33,556 nt of DNA from Candidatus Iainarchaeum sp. (GTDB taxonomy: Archaea; Iainarchaeota; Iainarchaeia; Iainarchaeales; JAFGBZ01): the NCBI GenBank assembly GCA_016932875.1, contig JAFGBZ010000062.1, forward strand, positions 1 to 33,556, written 5' to 3'. The translations under genes and the position numbers were made by a program. This document shows, one piece after another, positions 10,980-33,452 of this stretch (positions are counted from its first letter, which is position 1; every line of letters begins with the position of its first letter). The notes below the pieces were generated by a model that had not been told where the DNA came from, did not search any database, and saw only the letters and a list, made by a program, of their open reading frames with translations.

Positions 10980-11060
10980 CTCACTTAACTTTCAAATTCA
11001 ATTAAACAACTTTTCTTTTTGCATCTGTGCTTTTTCTTTTTTTAAAAGAAAAAGTCAGGT

Positions 11061-22850: not shown

Positions 22851-22933
22851 TTAAAAACACCTTAATAAAAAAAAAGAATTCATTGATATTTAAGGATTGC
22901 TGAAAAAGAAAAAAGTAATTAAATGCGAAGCAA

Positions 22934-22995: not shown

Positions 22996-22998
22996 AAA

Positions 22999-23070
22999 TG
23001 CATCTGCCGGGATTTGAACCCGAATCAAAAGCTTGGGAAGCTCTCATCCTAACCATTAGACTACAGATGC
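22999..23070 (-). tRNA. tRNA-Gly(CCC)
   Basis: Reverse complement GCATCTG...CAGATGC A, anticodon loop TTCCCAA, GGGTTCAAATCCC T-arm. Confidence 0.94.
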
Positions 23071-23115
23071 AACAAATTAATTGTTTTGAGAATTGTTTAA
23101 ATAATTACGCAAAAA

Positions 23116-25924: not shown

Positions 25925-25989
25925 CAATTCCACTAAAGTGGAATTGCTTTTTTTGGGTGAACATAAGCCTTTTTTTCTAAAAAAGGCTT
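25925..25989 (-). repeat. Double-hairpin intergenic element, family B, abutting the tRNA-Arg 3' end
   Basis: AAGCCTTTTTT-AGA-AAAAAAGGCTT, 18-nt spacer ATGTTCACCCAAAAAAAG, CAATTCCACT-TT-AGTGGAATTG; matching architecture at 33387-33452. Confidence 0.6.
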
Positions 25990-26062
25990 TGAGCCCGGAG
26001 GGATTCGAACCCCCAGCCGATTCGTCCGAAGCGAATTGCGCTATCCATTGCGCCACGGGCCC
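25990..26062 (-). tRNA. tRNA-Arg(TCG)
   Basis: Reverse complement GGGCCCG...CGGGCTC A, anticodon loop CTTCGGA, GGGTTCGAATCCC T-arm. Confidence 0.94.
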
Positions 26063-26327: not shown

Positions 26328-26591
26328 ATGGGCAAAATGATTGTTATTTACAGAATTAATCCTAAAGAACAAGAACAAGCAGAAGAATGTCTTGAAACCA
26401 TTAAATCAGGAAGTTTTTCAGGCGAATTAAGAGATGTTCAAATGGCTTCACCTGGATTTGGAATAAAAATAATTAAAGCAGCTTTTTTACTGCCTGATAA
26501 AGTTGAAGGCGTAGTAGATAAATTAACTGAAGAAATAACTGCATTAGATTTAGTTGAAGATGCAGAAGTAGAAGGAATGAATTTACTTTAA
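26328..26591 (+). CDS. Elongation factor 1-beta (aEF-1B)
   Basis: MIVIYRINPKE...FGIKIIKAAFLLPDKVEGVVDKLTEEITALDLVEDAEVEGMNLL; start MGKMIV at 26328 rather than 26289. Confidence 0.85.
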   Translation: MGKMIVIYRINPKEQEQAEECLETIKSGSFSGELRDVQMASPGFGIKIIKAAFLLPDKVEGVVDKLTEEITALDLVEDAEVEGMNLL

Positions 26592-26659
26592 TTCTGCACT
26601 GCCGAAGGCGTGCTCACGTGCCAACGGAGTGAACCGTTGAAGGAATGAATTTACTTTAA
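26571..26659 (+). repeat. 21-nt exact direct repeat (26571-26591 and 26639-26659) flanking a 47-nt hairpin element (26592-26638)
   Basis: GAAGGAATGAATTTACTTTAA twice; intervening TTCTGCACTGCCGAAGGCGTGCTCACGTGCCAACGGAGTGAACCGTT. Confidence 0.85.
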
Positions 26660-31295: not shown

Positions 31296-31340
31296 CACTT
31301 TTTATTTTTCACTTTTCAAAATTAATAATATTTAATTAAA

Positions 31341-31435
31341 TTACAAAAAATCTTCTGCTTCAGCCGTCCCGTCGGCTGGCGGACGGAGCACGCCTTCAGC
31401 AGTGCAGAATCAATTCACAGAAAATCTTCTGCTTC
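31341..31435 (-). repeat. 21-nt near-identical direct repeat (31415-31435 and 31341-31361) flanking a 48-nt hairpin element (31362-31409) plus 5 nt
   Basis: GAAGCAGAAGATTTTCTGTGA vs GAAGCAGAAGATTTTTTGTAA; element TTCTGCACTGCTGAAGGCGTGCTCCGTCCGCCAGCCGACGGGACGGCT. Confidence 0.85.
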
Positions 31436-33351: not shown

Positions 33352-33386
33352 TTTAAAAAGATTTAGGAAGCACTTTGCCGGTGCCA
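33352..33386 (-). promoter_or_regulatory. Shared upstream promoter module of the Zn-ribbon ORF
   Basis: Minus strand TGGCACCGGCAAAGTGCTTCCTAAATCTTTTTAAA; TATA-like box -24 to -31 from the ATG at 33328. Confidence 0.6.
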
Positions 33387-33452
33387 AGCTTTCTTTTTAG
33401 AAAAAAGAAAGCTGTGTTCGCAAAGAAAAAATGAATTTCGCAAGCGAAATTC
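33387..33452 (+). repeat. Double-hairpin intergenic element, family B
   Basis: AGCTTTCTTTTT-AGA-AAAAAGAAAGCT, 19-nt spacer GTGTTCGCAAAGAAAAAAT, GAATTTCGC-AA-GCGAAATTC. Confidence 0.6.

Follow-up and report, generated by a model that had tools for sequence, protein, structure and literature searches.

Miniature mobile elements with a pseudoknotted 3' end at gene and tRNA ends of Candidatus Iainarchaeum sp.: possible RNA-templated insertion

A 33,556 nt stretch of Candidatus Iainarchaeum sp. (positions 1 to 33,556 of contig JAFGBZ010000062.1, assembly GCA_016932875.1; hereafter the window) carries a GC-rich insert directly behind the aEF-1beta gene, followed by a second copy of the end of that gene. 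The genome has about 40 such related GC-rich elements, this insert among them. We conclude that they are real, non-autonomous miniature mobile elements whose 3' end is exact and pseudoknotted and whose 5' end is looser; very probably they were inserted at many sites and the flank was duplicated there. The best explanation for their spread would be an RNA-templated insertion resembling that of short interspersed nuclear elements (SINEs); it is unproven, and from the sequence data we give it a probability of roughly 0.45. The genome is a single metagenome-assembled genome (MAG) of 1.0 Mb in 100 contigs, with a GC content of 29.7% and 89.9% completeness, for which open reading frames (ORFs) served as gene models; 925 kb were analyzed in stretches, followed by 76 kb more.

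Anatomy of the elements and of the duplicated gene ends

The aEF-1beta coding sequence (CDS) ends with 21 nt (GAAGGAATGAATTTACTTTAA, encoding EGMNLL*) of which an exact second copy lies beyond the 47 nt insert (Table 1). The G at 26639 belongs both to the end of the element and to the copy behind it; depending on its assignment, the repeat measures 20 or 21 nt. With 60% GC the insert differs strongly from the genome. An earlier reading of this DNA from the letters alone (the sequence-only reading) had pointed out the repeat and the GC-rich insert, and its coordinates and base composition agreed with ours. It had also described two plain hairpins; the first, P1, was recovered, whereas the second is one half of an H-type pseudoknot.

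Further copies, as that reading had anticipated, are numerous. A covariance model (R1) was built from 16 copies, which match by construction, and yielded 44 matches at E<=1 in the 925 kb, of which 37 have E<0.01; only two weak matches were obtained in the remaining 76 kb. At gathering score no Rfam family other than tRNA was detected, and all other Rfam matches were weak and at chance level. In the window the P1 motif occurs twice (26592, plus strand; 31386, minus strand) compared with no occurrence in 100 shuffles.

The elements found with R1, termed family A, are about 50 nt long, have no coding capacity and consist of P1 (GCAC-T-GCC-GAA-GGC-GTGC type) followed by the pseudoknot, whose second helix closes on the last base. 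P1 was always followed by the pseudoknot, and pseudoknot-only, 5'-truncated matches exist. A pseudoknot descriptor detected 26 sites in the genome, mostly family A elements of which some are tallied on both strands, and two in a single Markov-shuffled genome. Covariation of both pseudoknot helices was assessed on 22 distinct copies, in which 95.9% of the cells were paired, compared with 83.4% after shuffling and at most 51% in slid controls. Two-sided changes numbered 34 compared with 10.2 in shuffles, although the copies are kin, so that the shuffle counts are not probabilities and it is the slid controls that support the structure. For pair 2-19 of helix S1 all four Watson-Crick orders were seen. 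This covariation argues for selection on an RNA. The aEF-1beta copy (26595-26639) belongs to a second subtype (TCAC/GTGA) and stands outside the covariation alignment.

Two other families, B (..CAATCAGGAAGGGTTAACGTAAGGGGAACCTGGGTTCCCCTCG) and C (CAATTCTGCGAAGCAGAATTG..AGCTTC..GAAGCTGG), were assigned by inspection and obey the same insertion rule. By inspection, both have putative pseudoknots, that of family B formed by CAGG/CCTG with GGGGAAC/GTTCCCC. At L043 and L080 family A is nested within B. Composite arrays of several hairpins and pseudoknots, extending to about 140 nt, were observed at L097 4140-4280, L101 14340-14456 and L083 1581-1669 as well as in the relatives' sequences L119 and L127; they resemble merged or longer versions of the elements.

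To characterize the flanks, downstream and upstream sequences of 45 copies were compared, with mismatched pairs as the null. Direct repeats of 17-72 nt flank 20 of the 45 copies; at the other 25 nothing above background was found at the element 3' end. The null 99th percentile (15.1) was exceeded by 18 of the 20 repeats, that at L052 being marginal, and the L007 repeat, at first cut by a stretch edge, was later confirmed at 33-34 nt. In all 20 cases the downstream half (D2) begins -1 to +2 nt from the element 3' end, while the distance from the upstream half (D1) to the element core can be anything between 0 and more than 100 nt. In 11 repeats the copied stretch is the end of a protein gene on the same strand, the stop codon lying inside D1 in ten and 5 nt past it in one. 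Three repeats take in a tRNA 3' end, each from or beside the T-loop G53 (L074 for family A; L079 and L007 for family B). The remaining six comprise one within an already duplicated gene end (L040 5221), four intergenic ones and L083, located at a contig edge, where the repeat reaches into the 5' portion of an ORF on the opposite strand. The element is in sense to the gene in all 14 gene-end repeats (11 protein, 3 tRNA). On average D1 ends about 5 nt past the stop codon, far nearer than uniform insertion into 3' gaps would give (P<=0.00025), and in the tRNA repeats it ends at or a few nt past the tRNA end. D2 opens with AA in 15 of the 20 repeats (P about 1e-8 relative to the genome-wide AA frequency), which is what microhomology with a GAA-like tail would give. 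An apparent codon-phase bias of the D starts (9 of 11 in frame) was dropped, as it depends on whether the shared G is counted with the element or with D.

tRNA borders, relatives and other copies in the window

Apart from protein genes, tRNA genes are an equally important target. At seven tRNAs of this genome and seven of relatives (14 in all), the family A 3' end falls -1 to +2 nt from where the mature tRNA begins or ends. These copies are located in sense before nt 1 or in antisense after nt 73, with the 3' end always towards the tRNA. Even if all copies were intergenic, the chance of seven border copies among about 36 in this genome would be about 1e-13, assuming a 12% intergenic share. Judged by inspection, B copies precede nt 1 of five tRNAs and C-like sequences follow nt 73 of five others; together, families A, B and C flank about 17 of the 39 tRNA genes. 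Family B-like hairpins stop exactly at tRNA nt 1 at L007 19827, L008 3024, L044 467, L059 12748 and L079 12518. In three further cases a family A copy occupies a tRNA intron and has its 3' end at the anticodon-loop junction; tRNA introns may stem in part from these elements. As a separate observation, tRNA introns with A or C sequence ending at this junction were noted at L022 3712-3875, L034 2737-2911, L044 277-467 and L021 4864-5011, and in L133.

Among the 58 genomes of the order, 13 (this one counted) gave R1 matches, as did one genome from a different order-level group in the class. In most relatives the matches number 1-7, compared with 36 here, and those near E=0.01 may include chance matches; a burst of family A in this lineage is likely. 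One exact pattern match and a weaker second copy were found in the 'Euryarchaeota' MAG ND3_Bin_21 (L135 1222-1289 and L175), where the family A pseudoknot is combined with a different upstream hairpin. Family A therefore either reaches past this phylum or was transferred. Family B was not found outside this genome at up to 3 mismatches, and exact-pattern scans of viral contigs gave no match that would indicate viral carriers. A match in G036 (L004) was rejected, as neither a pseudoknot nor a repeat surrounds it.

The aEF-1beta gene was present in 30 of 30 genomes searched, and no element follows it in the 22 relatives with inspected flanks, most of which have a C-terminus of the G/A-M-T-L-L type (e.g. 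EGMTLL*). As these empty-site relatives share the C-terminus, D1 represents the native gene end and D2 an added copy. The sequence-only reading had proposed a miniature element that inserts at gene 3' ends and regenerates the coding end. Insertion after genes and the second gene end were borne out, as were duplicated CDS ends at other copies, whereas the "regenerated" end has to be reworded: the upstream copy is native and the downstream one redundant.

These comparisons bear on the idea that nothing has moved, i.e. that hairpins conserved as cis-acting signals for tRNA processing or termination became associated with duplications through repair or assembly accidents. The many copies at tRNA ends without direct repeats would suit this idea, a role at tRNAs is possible, and the data stem from a single MAG assembly. 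However, the same anatomy recurs at 20 loci spread over many contigs, the element base from which D starts is the same each time, the two D copies carry point differences at some loci (identities of 65/71 and 24/28), A is nested within B at two loci and the relatives are empty after aEF-1beta. We consider a non-mobile origin very improbable.

The features in the window are listed in Table 1. The related element that had been reported after herA is present, and its repeat takes in the last herA codons. The 3' end of the element at 22933 is 20 nt off the 3' end of a tRNA-Gly gene (22998-23071, minus strand) with a hairpin-like stretch in between, and no direct repeat was found around this element. 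The C-like element at 25925 stops exactly at the 3' end of a tRNA-Arg gene (25990-26062, minus strand). More C-like hairpin sequences were observed at 33385-33452 (minus strand) and 11006-11060 (plus strand).

Table 1. Element copies and their flanking repeats in the window.
Feature	Position	Strand	Basis
D1, upstream copy: native end of aEF-1beta, last 6 codons plus stop (EGMNLL*)	26571-26591	+	sequence, relatives' C-termini
Element 5' joint, TTAATTC/TTAATTA-like, overlaps end of D1	26592-26595	+	read directly, compared with other 5' flanks
Family A hairpin P1, GCAC-T-GCC-GAA-GGC-GTGC	26596-26613	+	sequence
H-type pseudoknot, final base is element 3' end	26614-26639	+	read directly; structure class covaries in related copies
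Pseudoknot S1, TCAC pairs with GTGA	26614-26617 with 26629-26632	+	read directly
Pseudoknot S2, CAACGG pairs with CCGTTG	26622-26627 with 26634-26639	+	read directly
D2, downstream gene-end copy, begins at element 3' end, first G shared	26639-26659	+	sequence
D1 of herA copy, herA end (..EAEDFL*) and 7 nt	31408-31435	-	flank comparison
Family A element after herA, P1 and pseudoknot, 61.3 bits	31361-31406	-	covariance model
D2 of herA copy, 24/28 identical to D1	31334-31361	-	flank comparison
Family A element, P0 (TGCGAAGCA) directly ahead of P1	22933-22978	+	model match
Family C-like element (CAATTCCACTAAAGTGGAATTG .. AAGCC..GGCTT)	25925-25989	+	assigned to C by inspection

Possible routes of insertion and the search for machinery

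The exact 3' end combined with a loose 5' end, the 3'-anchored truncation, the covariation, the sense orientation in 14 of 14 cases and the long, variable duplications form a signature of RNA-templated insertion. In such a process each element would encode a small structured RNA, composed of a hairpin and a 3'-terminal H-type pseudoknot, which could serve as template. A 3'-OH in the target, either at a tRNA end or on the strand that pairs with the start of D, would prime DNA synthesis from the exact RNA 3' end. The new strand would then quit the template at a variable point and rejoin just beyond the gene end, by which 17-72 nt of the gene end would be duplicated in the order U-D-element-D-W. 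For copies right before tRNA nt 1, RNase P cleavage could free an RNA with about that 3' end.

Three observations weigh against this route. The antisense tRNA copies (after nt 73 and at the 37/38 junction) are unexplained by a simple sense-RNA model, the tRNA-border copies lack direct repeats, and a reverse transcriptase (PF00078) was absent from this genome and 12 element-bearing relatives. Cas1 (PF01867) was absent from the same 13 genomes. Genes may have been lost from the incomplete assembly of this genome; some of the element-bearing relatives are 96-99% complete. Those of the 58 genomes that have a reverse transcriptase or Cas1 all lack an element in the R1 search, the numbers being small; they include G053, G002, G004, G009, G024 and G043. 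As to recombinases, a single tyrosine recombinase gene was found here, of a family present in 56 of the 58 genomes.

The missing reverse transcriptase would suit an insertion at the DNA level, in which the folded, single-stranded element and a folded target (tRNA acceptor stem, T-loop or anticodon loop) would both be substrates of a structure-specific recombinase or endonuclease, and far-apart strand cuts would duplicate the 17-72 nt. Consistent with this, the tRNA sites 1, 37/38, 53 and 73 are all at stem/loop borders and both orientations occur. However, both ends of a DNA transposon are normally exact and its duplications are short and of fixed length. In the archaeal elements one end is loose, the duplication varies fourfold and orientation follows the gene at all gene ends; moreover, both the widespread family of the sole tyrosine recombinase and the absence of Cas1 speak against such an enzyme. 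We regard this alternative as rather unlikely.

The position of D, which spans the gene interior to just past its end like the repeats at attachment (att) sites (PMC3293823), and the D1 ends close behind stop codons and tRNAs also fit a small DNA circle that carries the element with a gene 3' fragment and integrates by recombination at the corresponding gene end of the chromosome, in the manner of phages at att sites. Such a circle might perhaps be a copy of an element-transcript chimera or of a circular RNA. But a separate gene end would have to be captured for every insertion, while genuine integrase elements keep to a single fixed site; the shortest D measure only 17-21 nt, and no integrase lies within the elements. 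We consider circle integration improbable.

Other candidates were discarded. Transduction from a source locus at the 5' joint was rejected, since the extra 5' sequences have no convincing match elsewhere in the genome; programmed bypassing elements do not apply, as the stop codon precedes the insert, nor do diversity-generating retroelements, as there is no reverse transcriptase.

Comparison with known mobile elements

By analogy, the insertion would work most like that of SINEs, which move by target-primed reverse transcription: both groups combine an exact 3' end, a variable 5' end, long and variable target duplications and a non-coding structured RNA, a putative one in the archaeal case. 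In contrast to SINEs, the archaeal elements lack a poly-A or simple-repeat tail, measure only about 50 nt and reside in genomes in which a reverse transcriptase was not detected, and it is on this last point that membership would fail. Casposons are known to insert beside tRNA or elongation-factor genes; casposon and CRISPR (clustered regularly interspaced short palindromic repeats) spacer integration differ from the present case in that duplication length varies here and Cas1 was not found in the 13 element-bearing genomes searched. Some A copies and C-like sequences resemble mobile archaeal bulge-helix-bulge tRNA introns in that they occupy the intron of a tRNA gene, their 3' end being placed at the anticodon-loop junction, but most copies lie outside tRNAs, several of them after stop codons with long direct repeats. 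Miniature inverted-repeat transposable elements and DDE transposons do not match, since no inverted repeat joins the element ends and the duplications vary in length between 17 and 72 nt. IS200/IS605-type, repetitive extragenic palindromic (REP) and TnpB elements insert without duplication, and the duplications described here argue against them.

Yeast mitochondrial GC clusters, together with double-hairpin or repetitive hairpin elements, are likewise short, GC-rich hairpins with many copies in an AT-rich genome and with merging or nesting (PMC4478555, PMC2800124). The flanks of GC clusters are limited to AG or ACT (PMC4478555); these repeats of 2-3 nt do not occur here, and gene ends are not duplicated by GC clusters. 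Integrative elements at tRNA 3' ends (SSV and pNOB8-type integrases) also have an insert flanked by tRNA 3'-end direct repeats with one host copy intact (PMC3293823), but the archaeal insert is non-coding and family A occurs at a wide variety of genes instead of at a fixed attachment site.

In the open-licence literature no published description of such elements was found. To our knowledge, no mobile element combines an exact pseudoknotted 3' end, gene-end duplications of 17-72 nt, insertion at mature tRNA borders and genomes without detectable reverse transcriptase or Cas1. The elements are a variant of the miniature mobile element, and there is a real chance that the insertion process is of a new kind. 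More tentatively, they might constitute a new class of archaeal RNA-derived mobile elements, in which three pseudoknot-ended small RNAs share one process: the RNA 3' end would be joined to cut gene or tRNA ends and copied into DNA without a dedicated resident reverse transcriptase. The finding makes it testable how short hairpin elements without enzymes of their own, such as GC clusters, REP-like repeats and tRNA introns, move. It may help to explain the gain of tRNA introns and tRNA-flanking hairpins in small archaeal genomes, and points to an unrecognised route by which small structured sequences spread.
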